Assembly: GCA_026196575.1 (NCBI GenBank)
Contig: JAPHSX010000030.1
Span: 1 to 64,000, forward strand
Source of the DNA: Gammaproteobacteria bacterium
GTDB taxonomy: Bacteria > Pseudomonadota > Gammaproteobacteria > Thiohalomonadales > Thiohalomonadaceae
Direction: 5' to 3'
DNA length: 64,000 nt
This document shows positions 7,661-60,031 of the stretch, piece after piece. The position numbers were made by a program, and so were the translations under genes. The stretch's first letter is position 1. Every line of letters starts with the position of its first letter. The notes under the pieces are model-generated. The model searched no databases. It was not told the DNA's origin and worked only from the letters and a program-made list of their open reading frames with translations.

Positions 7661-8854
7661 ATGCGGCTGTTGCTGCTGGCCTGCCTGGTACCGGCGATGG
7701 CCTGCGCCGATGCACAACAACCCGCAGCCTGCCGGCCAGACGACACCACCTGCAGCTGGACACGGCAGCTGACCGACAACGACCTGGGGCAATCGCCGAC
7801 CCTACGGGACATGGCGGTCGACCCCGCCGGCAACCTCTATCTGGCCGGGGAGACCTATCCCGAGACAGGGTTTGGCCAATCCGCCACCCTGCTCGCCAAG
7901 TTTGACGCCGACGGCAGAAGGCTGTGGGTCCGGCGGCTGGTCGCCGATGGCGGGGGCTTCAACATGGCCTACGGTATCGATGTCGATGCGAAAGGGAACA
8001 TCTGCCTCGCCGGTATCACCGATGGGGCCTTCGGTGCCGGCAAGGCAAGACGCAGGGACGGTTTTGTCGCCCGCTATGACACCGATGGGCACCCGCTATG
8101 GGCCATAAACACCGCCTCCGCTACCGCCTTTGCGGCCGGCTTGGACGACAAGGGCAATTGCCACACCGCCGCCCTCACCGAGGTGACCAAATATGACCCC
8201 ACAGGAAAGCGGCTGTGGACCTACCGCACGCCGGTCGGTGCCATGGCCGTCGGTGGTAATGGCCGGGTTTACCTCGTCGGCCAGGCCGACAACGCCCCCG
8301 AGCCCTACCTCATGATCCTGGATGGCAACGGCAAGGCCCTGTACCAGGAAACGCTGCGACTGGGGCGGAACTTCGGCTGGAACCAGCCGGACTTTCACAA
8401 CCCGGCCCTGGCCATCGACGCCCAGGGTGCCATCTACCTGCAGGCCACCATGTCCGAGTATGGCCGGAGCGGTGCCCTGCGCGTCGAGGCCTTTCTCGCC
8501 AAACTCGATTCCACCGGCAAAATCCTGTGGGAACGGCACCACGGTTCGGCAGGACACCGCTGGGACTCGTTCTATGTCGCCGTGGATGGCCCGGGCAATG
8601 CCTACCTGGTGGGGCGCACCATGACCTTCCCAGTCGCCAGCCCGGGCGATGTCTTTGTCATCAAGTATGATACCGACGGCGAACTGCAGTGGGCACGCCA
8701 GTTCGGTACCCCGCTGTTTGACGGGGCGGCTCGCATCGCCCTCGACCGCAACGGCAATCACTACATCGGCGGGGCAACGGAGGGCGACCTGACGGGCCAG
8801 GGCGACACCGTACGCAGGATCGCCGTGCCATTCATTGCCCGCAACCGGCCCTGA
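7661..8854 (+). CDS. SBBP-type beta-propeller protein, exported
   Basis: I choose ATG 7661 because it gives a compact signal peptide (MRLLLLACLVPAMACADA). GTG 7625, overlapping the resB stop, is the alternative and adds 12 residues. About 397 residues with repeats of the SBBP type: 'D-x-x-GN-x-Y/C-LAG-x-T' followed by 'A-K/R-x-D-x-DG-x-x-LW', seen as PAGNLYLAGET, KGNICLAGITDG and GNAYLVGRTM. This is a propeller family distinct from the two NHL proteins upstream. Cysteines near the N-terminus (CRPDDTTCSW) may form a disulfide. Last gene of the locus; function unknown. Confidence 0.85.
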   Translation: MRLLLLACLVPAMACADAQQPAACRPDDTTCSWTRQLTDNDLGQSPTLRDMAVDPAGNLYLAGETYPETGFGQSATLLAKFDADGRRLWVRRLVADGGGFNMAYGIDVDAKGNICLAGITDGAFGAGKARRRDGFVARYDTDGHPLWAINTASATAFAAGLDDKGNCHTAALTEVTKYDPTGKRLWTYRTPVGAMAVGGNGRVYLVGQADNAPEPYLMILDGNGKALYQETLRLGRNFGWNQPDFHNPALAIDAQGAIYLQATMSEYGRSGALRVEAFLAKLDSTGKILWERHHGSAGHRWDSFYVAVDGPGNAYLVGRTMTFPVASPGDVFVIKYDTDGELQWARQFGTPLFDGAARIALDRNGNHYIGGATEGDLTGQGDTVRRIAVPFIARNRP

Positions 8855-8860
8855 GAGGAG

Positions 8861-8875
8861 GGGGTCAGTTCTCGC
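8861..8875. repeat. Left 15-bp inverted repeat of the RAYT element
   Basis: GGGGTCAGTTCTCGC here is the exact reverse complement of GCGAGAACTGACCCC at 9753-9767. The left copy overlaps the transposase stop codon. Together they delimit a unit of about 907 bp. Confidence 0.85.
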
Positions 8876-9716
8876 CTTGTAGCATCTGCTTGCGAATAAC
8901 CCGCCCGATTGTCGCCAGATGCAGGCCAAAGTATTCGGCTATTTCGCGATAACTGTAAGCGCCGGTTGCATAGGCCGCCGCGATCGCGGTATTGCGCTCG
9001 CTATGCCGTCCTGCGATCACCTCCAATGATGGGGCCGGCGCTCGCCGCTGCACTTGCGGGATGCTTAGCTCATCCCCCTCCACTTTGGCTTTTGCCTGTG
9101 ACTGTTCCACGAAGGCCTCATTGCCCAGATAAATCTGCTGACGTAAATTGGCCCATACACTGTCAGTACTGTGCCCTGCCGCTACAAAATTCCGATAGCG
9201 ATTCCGTGCTACGGGCCGCGTGCCCCCGAACTGTGCCAGAACGACGGTGGTGGCCAGCCATTTGGGTGGGGCCTCTTCGCCGACCACGGCCCTGTAGCTG
9301 CTCCACGGCCAATCTCCAGGCTGAGCGACCAAGCCGGCACGAACCGGATTGAGTACCACATACCGGGCCAATTCCAGCATGTGGTTATCCTTGTCCACCA
9401 GGATCCCTTTGAACCGACCCTGGAAAAGGTGGCCGACTCGCCCATGTCGTCGGTTCGATGCCTGCGTGTAGACGCCGTTGAGCAGGCGCATCCCTTTGGA
9501 CAGGTTGGCATCCGGCGTCTCCACCACCAAGTGGTAGTGGTTGGTCATCAGGCAGTAGGCGTGGCAGATCCAATTGAACCGTTCCACCACCTCGGCCAGC
9601 GTCGACAGGAACATCCGCCGGTCTTCGTCATCCTCGAAGACCGCTTCGCGCCGATCACCGCGTGTGGTGACGTGATAGAGCGCACCGGCAAATTCAATTC
9701 GTAGAGGTCTGGCCAT
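8865..9716 (-). CDS. REP-associated tyrosine transposase (RAYT, IS200/Y1 family)
   Basis: 283 residues beginning MARPLRIEFAGALYHVT, the usual N-terminus of this family. It has the HUH motif in MTNHYHLVVE and the catalytic-tyrosine helix (GVYTQASNRRHGRVGHLFQGRFKG). The conserved ARYVVLNPVRAG and WPWSSYRA blocks follow. The C-terminal 35 residues (AYSYREIAEYFGLHLATIGRVIRK) form a helix-turn-helix, probably for DNA recognition. RAYTs are single-copy, domesticated relatives of IS200/IS605 transposases that process REP-type hairpins. The gene is intact and flanked by an exact inverted repeat and hairpins. A broken second copy lies at 58.4-58.5 kb. Confidence 0.95.
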   Translation of the reverse strand: MARPLRIEFAGALYHVTTRGDRREAVFEDDEDRRMFLSTLAEVVERFNWICHAYCLMTNHYHLVVETPDANLSKGMRLLNGVYTQASNRRHGRVGHLFQGRFKGILVDKDNHMLELARYVVLNPVRAGLVAQPGDWPWSSYRAVVGEEAPPKWLATTVVLAQFGGTRPVARNRYRNFVAAGHSTDSVWANLRQQIYLGNEAFVEQSQAKAKVEGDELSIPQVQRRAPAPSLEVIAGRHSERNTAIAAAYATGAYSYREIAEYFGLHLATIGRVIRKQMLQGEN

Positions 9717-9767
9717 GTGACAACACTACACCTTTGCATGCGGTGTCACAATGCGAGAACTGACCCC
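9717..9767. repeat. Hairpin and right 15-bp inverted repeat upstream of RAYT
   Basis: TGTGACA...TGTCACA, with an inner ACACC...GGTGT, spans about 9717-9750 just upstream of the transposase start. The right terminal repeat GCGAGAACTGACCCC follows at 9753-9767. Such hairpins are typical substrates of RAYT proteins. Confidence 0.7.
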
Positions 9768-9816
9768 GCCATCGCGTTTGGGGTCGGGCCCAGAAAATAC
9801 GGTTTTTGAAAGAACA

Positions 9817-9848
9817 GTGGTCGGGTTAGCAAAGTGTAACCCGACCAC
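9817..9848. repeat. Perfect 12-bp palindromic hairpin, REP-like
   Basis: GTGGTCGGGTTA and TAACCCGACCAC flank an 8-base loop (GCAAAGTG). It lies between the RAYT element and the amtB terminator. No T-run follows, so a repeat element is likelier than a terminator. Confidence 0.75.
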
Positions 9849-9877
9849 GGGCTGTTACCTGCCACCGGTTAGCCAAC

Positions 9878-9905
9878 AAAAAAAGGGCACCCGCAGGTGC
9901 CCTTC
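9878..9905 (-). terminator. Rho-independent terminator of amtB
   Basis: On the minus strand, GGGCACC-TGC-GGGTGCCC is followed by a run of seven or more T. It lies 24 bases after the amtB stop. Confidence 0.88.
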
Positions 9906-9928
9906 AGTTACTTCCACCAGGGAAAGAG

Positions 9929-11179
9929 CTACTTGCCGGTAAACTCCGGATAGGCCTCCAGCCCACACTCGGTAAGGTCGGTTCCCTCGTACTCCTCCTC
10001 TGCGCTGACGCGGATCCCCATCACTGCCTTGAGCACCAGCCAGGTGACGAAGCTGGCGCCGAAGACCCAGGCGAAGATGGTGGCGATGCCGATGAGCTGT
10101 GCGGTGAGTGTTGCCTCGGGGTTGGTGAGAACCACGGCCAGCAGCCCCCAGATCCCGACTACGCCATGCACCGAGATGGCACCGACCGGGTCGTCGATCT
10201 TCAGCTTGTCGAGGGTGATGATGGCGAAGACCACCAGTACGCCGCCGACCCCACCGATAGCGGTGGCGGCCAATGCGCTTGGGGTGAGCGGCTCGGCGGT
10301 GATGGCGACCAGGCCGGCGAGGGCGCCGTTCAGCGCCATCGTCAGGTCGGCCTTGCCAAACAGCAGCTTGGAGGCGATAAGGGCGGCGATGACGCCACCG
10401 GCGGCGGCCATGTTGGTGTTGACGAAGACCATCGCCACGGCATTGGCCTCGCCCACATCGGAGAGCTTCAGCTCGGAGCCGCCGTTAAAGCCGAACCAGC
10501 CCATCCACAGGATGAACATGCCGAGGGTGGCGAGCGGCATGTTGGCGCCGGGGATGGCGTTGATCTCGCCATTGGGGCCGTACTTGCCCTTGCGCGCGCC
10601 GAGCAGCAGCACGCCGGCCAGGGCGGCGGCGGCACCGGTCATGTGCACCACGCCGGAGCCGGCAAAGTCGAGGAAGCCGAGGCCATCGAGGAAACCGCCG
10701 CCCCACTTCCAGTACCCCTGCAGCGGATAGATGAAACCGGTCATCACCACGGCAAAGGCGAGGAAGGCCCACAACTTCATGCGCTCGGCCACCGCGCCCG
10801 AGACGATGGACATGGCGGTCGCCACGAACACCACCTGGAAGAAGAAGTCGGACATGGTGGAGTAGTAGGGGGCATCCTCGCCACCGGCCACGACTGCCGC
10901 CACCTCGTTGTCGGCCCCCAGCAGGAAGCTGATGCCCGGCCAGATGCTGGAGATTGCCGCATCGCCCGGATACATGATGTTGTAGCCGACCAGCATGTAC
11001 ATCACGCTGGCGATGGCGTAGAGCGCCACGTTCTTGGTGAGGATCTCGGCGGTATTCTTGGCGCGCACCAGGCCCGCCTCCAGCATGGAGAAGCCTGCCG
11101 CCATCCACATCACCAGCGCCCCGGATACCAGAAAGTAGAAGGTATCCAGCGCATATTTTACTTCTGTTATTGCTTCCAT
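9929..11179 (-). CDS. amtB: Ammonium transporter AmtB
   Basis: 416 residues with about eleven membrane helices. It starts directly in the mature region (MEAITEVKYALDTFYFLVSGALVMWMAAGFSMLEAGL), without the usual cleaved leader. Family blocks are present: GLVRAKNTAEILTKN, GVVHMTGAAAAL, MFILWMGWFGFNGGS and the late ISVHGVVGIWG with its conserved His. Amt proteins conduct ammonium through a hydrophobic pore in the inner membrane and are gated by GlnK. The gene lies 33 bases after glnK and shares its sigma-54 promoter; a good terminator follows. A glnK-amtB pair is the standard nitrogen-limitation module. Confidence 0.97.
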   Translation of the reverse strand: MEAITEVKYALDTFYFLVSGALVMWMAAGFSMLEAGLVRAKNTAEILTKNVALYAIASVMYMLVGYNIMYPGDAAISSIWPGISFLLGADNEVAAVVAGGEDAPYYSTMSDFFFQVVFVATAMSIVSGAVAERMKLWAFLAFAVVMTGFIYPLQGYWKWGGGFLDGLGFLDFAGSGVVHMTGAAAALAGVLLLGARKGKYGPNGEINAIPGANMPLATLGMFILWMGWFGFNGGSELKLSDVGEANAVAMVFVNTNMAAAGGVIAALIASKLLFGKADLTMALNGALAGLVAITAEPLTPSALAATAIGGVGGVLVVFAIITLDKLKIDDPVGAISVHGVVGIWGLLAVVLTNPEATLTAQLIGIATIFAWVFGASFVTWLVLKAVMGIRVSAEEEYEGTDLTECGLEAYPEFTGK

Positions 11180-11212
11180 CTCATTACCCTCCCACGGGGT
11201 CTTGTTATGCGT

Positions 11213-11737
<525 letters not shown>

Positions 11738-11804
11738 TCACCCATTGCGCGTGAGATGCACGGGGCAATGGATCACGGACGTAACTACCAGCCCCAGAAA
11801 AGCG

Positions 11805-11941
11805 TCTCACCGCAAAGGCGCAAAGTACGCAAAGGAAAACGCGGGCTGCGTAGCGATAGACCCAATGTGGAGGTAAGCCCGATACAGCGGAGCGGCATCA
11901 GGCCTACGACCTATATCAGCCTCTGCGCCTCTGCGGTGAGA
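11805..11941. repeat. 137-bp element with about 20-bp imperfect inverted ends
   Basis: TCTCACCGCAAAGGCGCAAAG at the left is matched by CTCTGCGCCTCTGCGGTGAGA at the right (18-19 of 21 positions). There is no ORF of note inside. It looks like a small MITE-type or repeat insertion in the glnK-torF spacer, upstream of the candidate NtrC site. Confidence 0.6.
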
Positions 11942-11981
11942 TCTTTTTGTTTTGGGGGCGAGTAAGTTACCACGCACCAAT

Positions 11982-12012
11982 AAAAAACCCGCCGCGGCGA
12001 ACCGGGGCGGGT
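11982..12012 (-). terminator. Rho-independent terminator of torF
   Basis: On the minus strand, ACCCGCC...GGCGGGT is followed by TTTTTT. It lies 43 bases after the porin stop. Confidence 0.8.
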
Positions 12013-12055
12013 CTTGCTGGTCGAGGCATCCGTGACGCGGTTGCGTCACATTATC

Positions 12056-12709
12056 CTAGAAGGACTGGCTCCAGGAGACGGTAACGCGGGGGTTATCCTC
12101 ACCGGCGCCGCTGTCGGTCAGATCATTCTTTTCGATCGCGAGGGTGAAGTCTGACTTGCTGACGCTCACCTTGAAGTGGCTGTAATCGGCATCGCTGTCG
12201 TTATCGAAACTGTACGCCCCGGCGGTGGCCCCCAGGGTGATCCCCTCGCTCACCTCGCTCTCCAGGCCGACGTAGTAGTAGATGTCACCCTCGCTGAAGG
12301 TGGCGGTATCGTCGTCATCCGAGCCGAAGGTGTAGGCCGCGCCGAAGCTGACGATATTGAAGCTGCCGTTGAAGTAGACCTCATTGAAATAGGTCTCGCT
12401 GACGGGATACTGGTAGCTCAGCAGGCCGACATCGTAGCCGAAGCCACCCGCCTCGCCGCCAAAGCCGCCATAGATGTCGAGCTCATACTCGCCACCGGCA
12501 AGGCTGGAGGTCCAGGCGCCCAGATAGAAGCCGGACTCCTGGGTATAGTCCATCCCACCCGAGACGGCGGCCAGATCGGCGGACTGGGTAACACCGCGCC
12601 AGATGTAGTTACTGGTGGCGCCCACGTTCATGGCTACCTCGGCCATCGCGGCGGAGCTGGCAGCGGTCAGTACGGCGGCGGCGATTAGAGATTTGGTCAC
12701 GTTTTTCAT
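12056..12709 (-). CDS. TorF-family putative porin
   Basis: 217 residues with a signal peptide (LIAAAVLTAASSAAMA). The mature protein starts EVAMNVGATSNYIWRGVTQS, the N-terminal hallmark of this family (NxGxxSxYxWRGxSQ). Alternating hydrophobic/polar strands, Gly/Tyr/Asp-rich turns and a terminal aromatic residue (SWSQSF) indicate an outer-membrane beta-barrel. Members often sit next to glnK-amtB. Here the gene has its own sigma-54 promoter and paired candidate NtrC sites, suggesting uptake of a nitrogenous solute under nitrogen limitation. The substrate is unknown. Confidence 0.9.
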   Translation of the reverse strand: MKNVTKSLIAAAVLTAASSAAMAEVAMNVGATSNYIWRGVTQSADLAAVSGGMDYTQESGFYLGAWTSSLAGGEYELDIYGGFGGEAGGFGYDVGLLSYQYPVSETYFNEVYFNGSFNIVSFGAAYTFGSDDDDTATFSEGDIYYYVGLESEVSEGITLGATAGAYSFDNDSDADYSHFKVSVSKSDFTLAIEKNDLTDSGAGEDNPRVTVSWSQSF

Positions 12710-12782
12710 TTGGTTACTCCCGGTTTGTCATGCCTTCATCAAGCAGAAATTTCATCTTTGGTATCAACACACCCGATGACTT

Positions 12783-12798
12783 TGCATAACGTGTGCCA
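12783..12798 (-). promoter_or_regulatory. Sigma-54 promoter of torF
   Basis: The minus strand reads TGGCACACGTTATGCA. GG and GC have the correct 12-base spacing, and the only consensus departures are positions 7 and 12. It lies about 74 bases upstream of the ATG, like the glnK promoter. Confidence 0.83.
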
Positions 12799-12861
12799 GC
12801 ATAAAAGGTTGCCCGTAAACCGCTGATTACGGTGCCTCGCGCTGGCCAACACCACCCTTAA

Positions 12862-12898
12862 CGCACCAATAAAAGGCCGCCTGCCCTCAATTGGTGCC
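12862..12898. promoter_or_regulatory. Two candidate NtrC sites 20 bp apart upstream of torF
   Basis: Minus-strand GGCCTTTTATTGGTGCG (12862-12878) has a near-perfect right half. GGCACCAATTGAGGGCA (12882-12898) has a near-perfect left half. Their 20-bp offset is two helical turns, as in known paired NtrC enhancers. They lie 64-100 bp upstream of the sigma-54 promoter. Confidence 0.5.
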
Positions 12899-12989
12899 AG
12901 GCGCCATACGACATGCCAGGTACACACCGGGGCGGGAAATAGCGTACTATTCTGCAAACCAGAGGCGAAACCCGCAGCGAGCATCGACC

Positions 12990-13235
12990 ATGAACAAACC
13001 ACTATTCGACACCATCCTCAACCGCTTCAGCAGCACCCTGCCACCGGGTGCCGGGGTGTTGCGCGAGGATCTGGAGAGCGGCCTGCGCGCGGCGCTCCAC
13101 TCCGCCCTTGACAAGCTGGAGCTGGTGACCCGCGAGGAGTTCGAGGTGCAGGCCCAGGTACTGCAGCGCAGCCGCGCCCGGCTGGAGCAGCTGGAGAAGA
13201 CGGTGGCCGCCCTGGAGAGCCGACTCAACCCATAA
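12990..13235 (+). CDS. ubiK: Ubiquinone biosynthesis accessory factor UbiK (BMFP family)
   Basis: 81 residues from the ATG at 12990; the ORF track's earlier start adds a non-family leader. The N-terminus (FDTILNRFSSTLPPG) and C-terminal coiled coil (LVTREEFEVQAQVLQRSRARLEQLEKTVAALE) match the BMFP/YqiC family. In enterobacteria it helps aerobic ubiquinone synthesis through the UbiJ-UbiK complex. It stands directly before yifB, a common arrangement. Confidence 0.9.
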   Translation: MNKPLFDTILNRFSSTLPPGAGVLREDLESGLRAALHSALDKLELVTREEFEVQAQVLQRSRARLEQLEKTVAALESRLNP

Positions 13236-13281
13236 TGCCCGCGGGGCAGCCCGCGCCGCCAACCACCATGGAAGGGATACC

Positions 13282-14787
13282 GTGTCACTTGCCACCATCC
13301 ACAGCCGCGCCACCGTCGGCATCCAGGCCCCACCGGTCACTGTCGAGGTGCACCTGGCCAACGGCCTGCCTGCCCTCAATATCGTTGGCCTGCCCGAGGC
13401 GGCGGTAAAGGAGAGCAAGGATCGGGTGCGCGCCGCGCTGCAGAACGCCCGCTTCGAGTTCCCCGCCCGGCGCATCACCATCAACCTCGCCCCTGCCGAT
13501 CTGCCCAAGGAGGGGGGACGCTTCGATCTGCCCATTGCCCTCGGTATCCTCGTCGCCTCGGGGCAACTCCCCGCCGACAAACTGGGGCAGTATGAGTTCA
13601 TCGGCGAGCTGGCCCTCTCCGGCGAGCTGCGTCCGGTGCGCGGCGTGCTGCCGGTGGCGCTGCAGAGCCGGGAGGCGGGACGCACCCTGGTGCTACCGGC
13701 GCAAAACGGTGCCGAGGCGGCGCTCATCAGCGGCGCGACGGTACAGCCGGCGCACCACCTGCTGGAGATCTGCGCCCACCTGCACGGCCAGCAGCCGCTT
13801 CCCTTCGCCGAGCCACCCCCCGTCACTGCCAGCCCCGACTATCCCGATTTGGCCGAGGTCTACGGCCAGCATCAGGCGCGTCGCGCCCTGGAGATCGCCG
13901 CCGCCGGCAACCACAGCCTGCTCTTCTACGGCCCGCCCGGTACCGGCAAGACGATGCTGGCGAGCCGGTTGCCCGGAATCCTGCCGCCGATGAGCGAGGC
14001 GGAGGCGATCGAGAGCGCGGTGATCGCCTCGGTCAGCGAACAGGGCTTTCTGCCACAGAACTGGGGGCGCCACCCCTACCGCGCCCCGCACCACACCGCC
14101 TCGGCGGTGGCGCTGGTGGGCGGCGGCAGCAACCCGCGCCCCGGCGAGATCTCGCTGGCCCACCAGGGGGTGCTGTTTCTCGATGAGCTGCCGGAGTTCG
14201 ACCGCAAGGTGCTGGAGGTGCTGCGCGAGCCGCTGGAGTCGGGCACCATCACCATCTCGCGTGCCGCCCGCCAGGCGGAGTTTCCGGCCCGCTTCCAGCT
14301 CATCGCGGCGATGAATCCCTGCCCCTGCGGCTATCTGGGCCACCCCAACGGCCGCTGCCGCTGCAGCGGCGAACAGGTGGCGCGTTATCGCGCCCGCCTC
14401 TCCGGGCCGCTGCTGGATCGCATCGACATGCATGTGGAGGTGCCACCGCTGCCGCGTGGCACGCTGCAACAACAGCAGGGGATGGAGGCGAGTGCAACGG
14501 TACGCGAGCGGGTCAGCCGCTGCCGGGAGCGGCAGCTGGCGCTACGCCACAAGGCCAACAGCCGGCTCGACAATCGTGAGCTGAAGCGCTTCTGCGCCCT
14601 GCAACCGCGCGAGGGGCAGCTGCTGGAGCAGGCCACCGAGCAGCTGGGGCTCTCGGCGCGGGCCCACCAGCGCATTCTGCGCCTGGCGCGCACCATTGCC
14701 GACCTGGAGGGGGTGGCGGAGATCGAGGTAAAACACCTCAGCGAGGCGATTGGTTACCGCCGGCTGGACCGCCAGCAGCGCGGGTAA
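13282..14787 (+). CDS. comM: YifB/ComM family AAA ATPase (Mg-chelatase-like)
   Basis: 501 residues from a GTG preceded by GAAGGGA. The N-terminal domain (ATVGIQAPPVTVEVHLANGLPALNIVGL) is a Lon-protease-like S5 fold. The Mg-chelatase AAA+ domain has Walker A GPPGTGKT (around residue 218), Walker B VLFLDELPEF and the Cys-rich MNPCPCGYLG...CRCS region. ComM proteins act as hexameric helicases that promote branch migration during natural transformation. The ubiK-yifB order is common in this class. Confidence 0.94.
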   Translation: MSLATIHSRATVGIQAPPVTVEVHLANGLPALNIVGLPEAAVKESKDRVRAALQNARFEFPARRITINLAPADLPKEGGRFDLPIALGILVASGQLPADKLGQYEFIGELALSGELRPVRGVLPVALQSREAGRTLVLPAQNGAEAALISGATVQPAHHLLEICAHLHGQQPLPFAEPPPVTASPDYPDLAEVYGQHQARRALEIAAAGNHSLLFYGPPGTGKTMLASRLPGILPPMSEAEAIESAVIASVSEQGFLPQNWGRHPYRAPHHTASAVALVGGGSNPRPGEISLAHQGVLFLDELPEFDRKVLEVLREPLESGTITISRAARQAEFPARFQLIAAMNPCPCGYLGHPNGRCRCSGEQVARYRARLSGPLLDRIDMHVEVPPLPRGTLQQQQGMEASATVRERVSRCRERQLALRHKANSRLDNRELKRFCALQPREGQLLEQATEQLGLSARAHQRILRLARTIADLEGVAEIEVKHLSEAIGYRRLDRQQRG

Positions 14788-58085: not shown

Positions 58086-58367
58086 ATGTTTGATACCAAT
58101 GAATATTTTGATGGCAAGGTGAAGTCCATCGCCTTCAGTGTCGGCGCTGAGGCCGCCACTATCGGCGTCATGGCCGCCGGTGAGTATGAGTTTGGCACTA
58201 GCCAGCAGGAGACCATGCAGGTGATTAGTGGCGGACTCACCATCAAGCTTCCCGGTGACAACGAGTGGCGGCGCTTTGGCCCCGGCGAGCAGTTTGTCGT
58301 GGAGGCCGATCAGAAATTTGGTGTGCGGGTGGAGGAGGATAGCTCCTACCTCTGTATCTACCGCTAA
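58086..58367 (+). CDS. ppnP: Pyrimidine/purine nucleoside phosphorylase PpnP
   Basis: 93 residues of the YaiE/DUF1255 cupin family: [74 protein letters not shown]. It cleaves diverse nucleosides with phosphate. AAGGAGA stands 6 bases before the ATG. The 261-base spacer upstream (57825-58085) shows no gene. Confidence 0.94.
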
Positions 58368-58510
58368 ACCGTGGCCATGGGAGACGGTTCGGCAGCCCGG
58401 TTTTTTACCAGGCTGCTGAACGTCTCCGGGTAAATATCCTCGCGCCGGTCTACACAGGAATCCACATAATACAACGCCCCGGCAAATTCGAGTCTGCGCG
58501 GTCTGACCAT
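58364..58510 (-). pseudogene. RAYT transposase remnant (N-terminus only)
   Basis: Reading the minus strand from 58510 gives MVRPRRLEFAGALYYVDSCVDRREDIY, clearly the start of a RAYT protein (compare MARPLRIEFAGALYHVTTRGDRREAVF at 9716). It then diverges and stops after 48 codons at 58364, overlapping the ppnP stop. The HUH and tyrosine motifs are missing, so it is a deleted copy. Confidence 0.85.
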
Positions 58511-58740
58511 GCAATAAAACCTGGATCAGATCATGAAAAAGCAAGCGGAAAGCCCCGTGCTTCTGCTGCATTTCATCGCTTTGTTCCGTACGAATGGAAT
58601 ACTGGTGGCTGCGCAACTCGACAAGAAAGCTATCCAGCTCATCGCGATACTGCGAAGTTATCTCCTCAAGGTGTCCCTCTGTGGTAATCGAAAAGCTGAG
58701 TATCTACGAGGCCCAGGCAGAAGGAAGCGCAAAATGCCCC

Positions 58741-58838
58741 TAACAACAAATTCAACAAGGACATACCTCCGTGGCGCGCATTTTGTGCAAATTCGCACAA
58801 AATACACGCCACTACGGTATGCCTTATGTGAAACGTTA
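58741..58838. repeat. attC-like long imperfect palindrome
   Basis: TAACAACAAATTCAACAAGG...GCATTTTGTGC pairs with GCACAAAAT...CCTTATGTGAAACGTTA over most of 45 bases around an AAATTC loop. The ends TAAC/GTTA and an unpaired extra base (GGACATACC against GGCATACC) resemble integron attC sites. No integrase gene is visible. The surrounding 58511-59148 shows no convincing gene. Confidence 0.5.
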
Positions 58839-59148
58839 TGACTAAAATCCGCGAGATTCTCTCCAGTGTTTAACTGCACCGGACTCAGGTGTAGATAGGT
58901 ATATAGATGGTGAAGTAAGGGCCGATGCTGCCACATACTAAGCGGCGGCCGGGGGAGCCGTCGATTGATATCCCTCTCATCAATAAATGTGATTGGCTGA
59001 TGCCAGAGCAATATACTATGGTATTGATACTATCACCACGCCCCATGCTGTAAATCGGCAATTTAGAGGAACAGGATGGAGGATACGCGGGGAGCGGCGT
59101 ACTGTGCGCAGCCTTGTATGCGGAAGTGGTGAGTCAGAGGAGACCGCC

Positions 59149-59466
59149 ATGTCGATATCTACACATTCCCGTAGCACGGCCGCCCTCAGTTTCGAGTCCC
59201 TGAATTGGGTCGCCGCCGATGCGCTGGCGCGCGATCAAACCCAGAGTCATCGCTTACACGAGCCTGAGCACCGCACCAACTCCGCCGACCCCATGACGGG
59301 CGAGGATATCGAAAATGTCACCACTCATCCATCACTGGTGGATGGTGACCTCACGCTCTATTTCGAAACAAAGGCGACCCGCAAGGCGTATCTGGATACG
59401 CCGGTCGATCATCCCAACCCACACTTGCCCTACCCGGCATCGGACACTGACGACCGTGGTGGCTGA
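59149..59466 (+). CDS. Small hypothetical protein upstream of DsrC-like gene
   Basis: ATG 59149 behind GAGGAG gives 105 residues; the ORF track's earlier start has no support. It is hydrophilic and acidic, without cysteine or signal peptide. Segments such as HEPEHRTNSADPMTGEDIENVTTHPSLVDGDLTLYFET and YLDTPVDHPNPHLPYPASD look like a structured, possibly conserved protein. No family recognised. It stands 220 bases before the DsrC-like gene, and that spacer shows no clear gene. Confidence 0.6.
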   Translation: MSISTHSRSTAALSFESLNWVAADALARDQTQSHRLHEPEHRTNSADPMTGEDIENVTTHPSLVDGDLTLYFETKATRKAYLDTPVDHPNPHLPYPASDTDDRGG

Positions 59467-59686
59467 GTCCGGTGGATTGGAGGAGAGACGACAGGCCCAG
59501 CAAGATCGCCGTTTTGCTTGCTTGGGCAGCACGTTGGTGGCGCACCTTCGCCGGCATCCCCTTCTTCGGCGCGCCTGTCATGGGAAAAGGTCGAAGGTAA
59601 GTATTACCAACTGACGGTGATGTTCATCGTACTCGACGGTTGGCCGGTACGATACGCCCCACCATTCACAAGAGGAGTGTCCGATC

Positions 59687-60031
59687 ATGAACGATTTCTA
59701 CCTTTCACAAGTAAACCCCGATTTCCCTTTTGCTCCCGAGGAGTGGCAGGAAAGCGATGCCGTGCGCATGGCGCGTGATGAGGGAATTGAACTCGGCCCG
59801 GATCACATGCTACTGCTGCACTCTTTGCAAGAATATTTCTATACACATAGCAAGCCGGACGTACACATTCGGCAGCTACGCGATGCACTGGATGAGAAAT
59901 TTCATGAGAAAGGGGGAACAAAGTATCTCTTTCATCTGTTCCCCGGTGGGCCTGTTGCACAGGGTTGCCGACTTGCCGGCTTACCCGTTCCTGCGGGTGC
60001 TGAAGATAAATCCTTCGGCAGTGTGCAGTAG
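59687..60031 (+). CDS. DsrC/TusE-family protein lacking the penultimate cysteine
   Basis: 114 residues behind AGAGGAG. The DsrC fold is clear: [37 protein letters not shown], then [40 protein letters not shown]. Canonical DsrC ends ...C-x10-C-V with two redox cysteines. Here the inner Cys (QGCRLAG) is kept, the outer one is Ala (PAGA), and nine residues extend beyond. It therefore cannot form the usual intramolecular trisulfide and is probably a regulatory or single-thiol carrier variant. Confidence 0.9.

Follow-up and report, generated by a model that had tools for sequence, protein, structure and literature searches.

The window analysed here, that is the whole 64,000-nucleotide stretch at the start of contig JAPHSX010000030.1 from a gammaproteobacterium of the Thiohalomonadaceae, contains between ppnP and a DsrC/TusE-like gene an interval in which an attC site lies beside a short piece of an integron-integrase gene (intI). 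The features of this interval are listed below, with the evidence for each in brackets.

58086–58367, + strand: ppnP, the left neighbour (Pfam PF06865, E 7e-34; synteny with the sister species G001 to its left)
58571–58694, strongest at 58571–58677, − strand: fragment of a long-form integron-integrase gene (nucleotide identity, tblastn)
58695–58737: 43-bp junction between the intI fragment and the attC (sequence comparison)
58738–58841, + strand in the direction R'' to R': attC site (match to covariance model R2, bottom-strand fold, arrays of relatives)
58738–58744, + strand: R'' box, CCCTAAC (sequence; covariance-model alignment to the R'' boxes of 12 attC sites of relatives)
58751–58832: inner palindrome with L''/L' arms, stem ATTTTGTGC/GCACAAAAT and a short apical loop (inverted repeat, fold)
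58835–58841, + strand: R' box, GTTATGA (sequence; covariance-model alignment)
59149–59466, + strand: ORF of 105 aa, about 300 bp 3' of the attC (family, Pfam and NCBIfam searches)
59687–60031, + strand: DsrC/TusE-like gene, the right neighbour (Pfam PF04358, E 8e-18)

The earlier note on this DNA had suggested that the 105-aa ORF might be a stray gene cassette marked by the palindrome. A cassette's attC follows its gene, and this ORF lies on the wrong (3') side of the site; moreover, the covariance-model scan of the window found no attC behind it, and no relatives of its product were recovered from 19 other genomes of the family, Pfam or NCBIfam. We therefore rejected it as the cassette gene of this attC. 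No recognisable gene ends at the R'' box. A search of 58368–59690 against a plasmid collection at distant sensitivity gave no match. A terminator-like palindrome, GGAGACGGTTCGGCAGCCCGG...CCAGGCTGCTGAACGTCTCC, was seen by eye just after ppnP at window positions 58380–58428.

Sequence, fold and relatives of the attC site

The covariance model R2 (93 positions, 11 pairs) was trained on 12 attC sites from the integrons of four genomes of the same family, with the window site excluded from the training set. A scan of the 64-kb window with this model returned a sole significant match, at 58738–58841 on the + strand, which covers the full model length and ends exactly at the R'' and R' boxes. The match scores 53.8 bits, a value raised by the presence among the training sites of the third attC of G001, which is 90% identical to the window site; its E-value of 1.9e-10 is rough, as are all those obtained with the shortened calibration, yet the gap to the next-best match in the window (E 2.6) is very wide. 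Thus, the covariance check proposed in the earlier note, done with R2 instead of the IntegronFinder model, singles out the very palindrome noticed there, with the exact extent being 58738–58841 rather than 58738–58842. An Rfam scan matched no family at the attC; its sole matches across the window were two tRNAs.

The inverted-repeat arms of the site occupy 58751–58791 and 58792–58832. Folded as single-stranded DNA, its bottom (−) strand attains −28.8 kcal/mol, as against −11.45 ± 2.25 kcal/mol for shuffled sequences (z −7.7, 0 of 200 as good), and its top (+) strand −22.1 kcal/mol (z −5.4). The bottom strand likewise outfolds the top strand in each of the five aligned relatives, i.e., in six of six sites. 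The unpaired extra base in one arm and the small apical loop described from the letters alone correspond in the fold to one extrahelical base and a 4-nt loop. The site accordingly combines an imperfect palindrome, L''/L' arms, an extrahelical base and a variable stem, the combination that characterises attC sites, and its boxes contain the invariant TAAC and GTTA, with outer bases that depart from the consensus RYYYAAC and GTTRRRY. Integron integrases bind the folded bottom strand of an attC and recombine it with attI or with another attC. The computed fold supports the formation of such a hairpin by the bottom strand of the window site, and the − strand is the one expected to be recombined.

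Alignment of the window site with its five relatives also showed the pairing to be conserved: 81.5% of the cells pair, as opposed to 28–39% in slid structures, 16 cells display changes on both sides versus 6.8 in shuffles, and the covariation score is 0.219 versus 0.105 in shuffles (0 of 500 shuffles). Within the inner palindrome, 11 pairs are changed on both sides versus 6.4 in shuffles. Conservation of pairs across these six related sequences supports the assignment, short of proving it.

The closest relatives of the site lie in cassette arrays. On contig C34 of G001, a complete integron has its intI on the − strand followed by three attC sites on the + strand, of which the third is 90% identical to the window site over 98 bp. 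An exact 24-mer common to these two sites was found in three public bins, one of which has the same content as the G001 contig; the attC sites in these bins are 95%, 93% and 90% identical to that of the window. They are preceded by different cassette ORFs (134, 143 and 141 aa, respectively), each of which terminates at the R'' box, and the identity to the window site stops at the attC boundaries. The same attC following three different cassette genes is therefore a shared unit, as expected for cassette arrays. The closest of these sites (95%; L113:3584–8000) is the final attC detected in its array; the ORFs behind it resemble, by eye, phage terminase and portal genes. A 21-mer of the attC site was not found in viral contigs.

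Taken as a conclusion from sequence and structure model, 58738–58841 is a genuine attC of an integron gene cassette. The attC-like nature suspected for the palindrome is thereby borne out by the R2 match and by the 90–95% identity to attC sites in the arrays of other bins. It is extremely improbable that the palindrome is instead a REP-like element or a transcription terminator resembling an attC by chance. Such a reading would account for a strong hairpin in an intergenic stretch, but it is at odds with the full-length model match at E 1.9e-10 and with the near-identical sites in cassette arrays of other genomes. We rejected a REP element in particular since it needs many dispersed copies: a search of the own genome found no second copy of the site, and its single-copy state therefore speaks against the REP family that the earlier note had named as a refuting outcome.

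The integrase-gene fragment and the integrons of the genome

The earlier note took the site to stand without an integron; however, a fragment of intI lies only 43–60 bp from it, in the canonical orientation. On the − strand, 58571–58677 has 84% nucleotide identity over 107 bp to C29:183–289 of the same genome, which falls within a gene scoring over the NCBIfam integron-integrase cut-off. In tblastn comparisons the fragment gives 77% identity over 35 aa (E 2e-13) and, against the G019 long-form IntI, 51% identity across 41 aa (E 6e-10), the latter extending the match to about 58694. Only about 124 bp of intI are left at the locus, and their 5' side faces the attC, as in intact integrons. In the junction, GCGCAAAATG (58727–58736) is also found at the end of the cassette gene preceding the G001 attC. 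No attI-like sequence was found near the window attC; the presumed attI of C4 and C39, two other contigs of the genome, contains GGCTATAACAnGTTATG. The locus thus has a fragmentary intI and an attC, rather than the full set of parts of a complete integron. We also considered whether the attC might lie within an extended integrase pseudogene of the long form, and rejected this: a weak G019 match at 59072–59230 (E 0.06–0.08) contains stops, and the nucleotide comparison past 58678 scored under the shuffled mean.

By these sequence comparisons the fragment derives from a long-form IntI, a version of about 450–520 aa with an N-terminal extension, examples of which are encoded in the own genome (C29:1–1164 together with C39:1–315; L018, L112) and in G019 (C197; L049). 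The extension comprises about 150 residues and is weakly similar to a second SAM-like domain; in the C4 copy it matches the SAM-like domain PF13495 weakly, at E 2.6e-5, which is under the curated cut-off. Matches to the extension were recovered from 27 genomes, own genome counted, among 369 sampled from the class, and several of the 27 have attC matches close by. Among papers searched by title and abstract, none was found to be about the long-form IntI, a form that may nevertheless have been described before.

The earlier note had also seen no integrase nearby and had proposed a genome-wide search for intI and similar sites. This search recovered two IntI genes over the NCBIfam cut-off, on C17 and C29, and 12 attC matches at E ≤ 0.1, with six on C4, two on C7 and one each on C31, C39, C17 and in the window. 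C4 encodes the N-terminal part of a long-form intI, which is cut off and followed by an attC array; this integron (L109:7830–8330 and 8814–13534) thus consists of the truncated gene and at least seven attC sites. The palindromic stretch TCTAGACAG...CTGTCTAGA upstream of the C4 intI is possibly an operator. C39 begins with an intI start and carries one attC. The opening 33 bases of C39 and of C29 are reverse complements of each other, so that the two contigs probably form one intact long-form intI gene; the identical 33 bases are also present on C4, which would explain the assembly break. C17 codes for a short-form IntI (L017:7702–8700) with weak attC-like matches at 8954–9076 and 9212–9334. 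The genes surrounding it are phage-like (integrase, SbcC/SbcD-like and exonuclease families in PHROGs), and this integron perhaps sits in a prophage or an integrative element.

Gene order and the origin of the locus

The order to the left of the attC, comprising a lytic transglycosylase-like gene and the genes for an SH3/Sel1 protein, a sulphur globule protein and PpnP, is kept in G001. In G001, G010 and G015, ppnP adjoins cca. In the own genome, cca lies on the same contig at a distance of 28 kb from ppnP, with C46:58368–86461 between them. Since these neighbours in three relatives are split here, the attC and the intI fragment lie at a break in gene order. The intervening segment carries apparent core genes (DsrC-like, spermidine synthase, arginine decarboxylase, trp and others, several of them named by eye), part of which are located elsewhere in G001. 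The cca end of the segment yielded neither attC nor intI; hence, we rejected the notion that the segment is bounded by attC sites at both ends, and the data lend no support to integron recombination having had a part in the break.

We consider it likely that a chromosomal integron has decayed at this break and that the attC and the intI fragment are what is left of it. By parsimony, both would come from one former integron at the locus, and the order of losses that we infer, including that of the cassettes, would have removed the rest of intI, attI and the cassette genes, leaving a locus where the ancestral order of ppnP next to cca is now broken. In favour of this reading are the attC assignment, the integron-like order and orientation of the fragment and the attC, the further integrons elsewhere in the genome and the split of ppnP from cca. 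Several observations count against it. With intI so scant (about 124 bp) and no attI-like sequence found, the one-integron origin is argued from parsimony; the fragment is cut inside intI where it meets the attC, which calls for one or more deletions or rearrangements; and the R' box GTTATGA departs from the usual GTTRRRY.

Two other origins have to be weighed against the decayed integron. The fragment and the attC could be pieces of another integron of the same genome, for instance that on C4, brought in by the ppnP/cca rearrangement. This has in its favour that, in the C29 frame, the homology of the C4 intI stops at residue 53, close to the start of the window fragment at about residues 57–62, and also that the locus is at a synteny breakpoint; nevertheless, we regard it as unlikely, as the window fragment spans about 40 residues and then gives way to an attC on its 5' side, and the other end of the 28-kb segment yielded neither attC nor intI. 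Alternatively, an integron integrase might have placed a single cassette into a secondary site of the chromosome, where the cassette gene then decayed, with the intI fragment being coincidental or having arrived with it. The own genome has integrases capable of this, the attC family is found with varied genes, and the authors of IntegronFinder 2 accept that single-attC elements can be true (PMC9024848). Against it stand the intI fragment 43–60 bp off in canonical orientation, the lack of a recognisable cassette gene ending at R'', and the left side, where no clean cassette boundary was identified; with an intI fragment at the attC, a local integron residue is the simpler account, and the insertion is quite unlikely.

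Under the decayed-integron reading, the window attC would lack both a cassette gene that it could mobilise and an integrase at the locus, and may retain residual activity as a possible partner for recombination in trans by an intact IntI encoded elsewhere in the genome. Given that neither a preceding gene nor a local integrase accompanies it, the attC is most likely inert, or such a partner in trans at best. That it is still used in trans by an intact integrase and, in addition, that recombination at this attC or its parent integron helped to move the 28-kb segment is very unlikely.

Known counterparts and meaning

The site resembles the attC sites of gene cassettes in its TAAC...GTTA boxes, its L''/L' arms with an extrahelical base, its better-folding bottom strand and its 90–95% identity to sites in the arrays of related bins, but differs from them in being solitary, in having no gene before it and in its R' box. 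In the G001 integron, the third attC is the counterpart at 90% identity, whereas that integron possesses a full, short-form intI, three attC sites, cassette genes and other flanking genes. Clusters of attC sites lacking an integrase are termed CALINs in IntegronFinder; version 2 reports them only from at least two attC sites, although its authors point out that single sites can be true (PMC9024848). The window locus is like a CALIN or a single-attC element in that no complete integrase adjoins its attC, and CALINs have been proposed to be degraded integrons; on the other hand, it has one attC, where the default threshold is two, and an intI fragment is still beside it. Truncated integrase genes and left-over attC sites have been described in Xanthomonas (PMC12444791), whose degraded chromosomal integrons share with the window locus a truncated or lost intI and left-over attC sites at chromosomal loci, but the latter retains no more than a single attC plus about 124 bp of intI and belongs to a different lineage.

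A solitary attC remnant is thus of a kind already known, and since its mechanism is also known the general interest of this case is limited. At the same time, it shows that a real attC can be spotted by eye as a hairpin, and that true remnants can occur among the single-attC matches that the defaults of current tools omit. The genome contains integrons that are apparently intact, a truncated integrase with an array, and an attC with a scrap of integrase; with these several states side by side, it can usefully serve to illustrate integron turnover.
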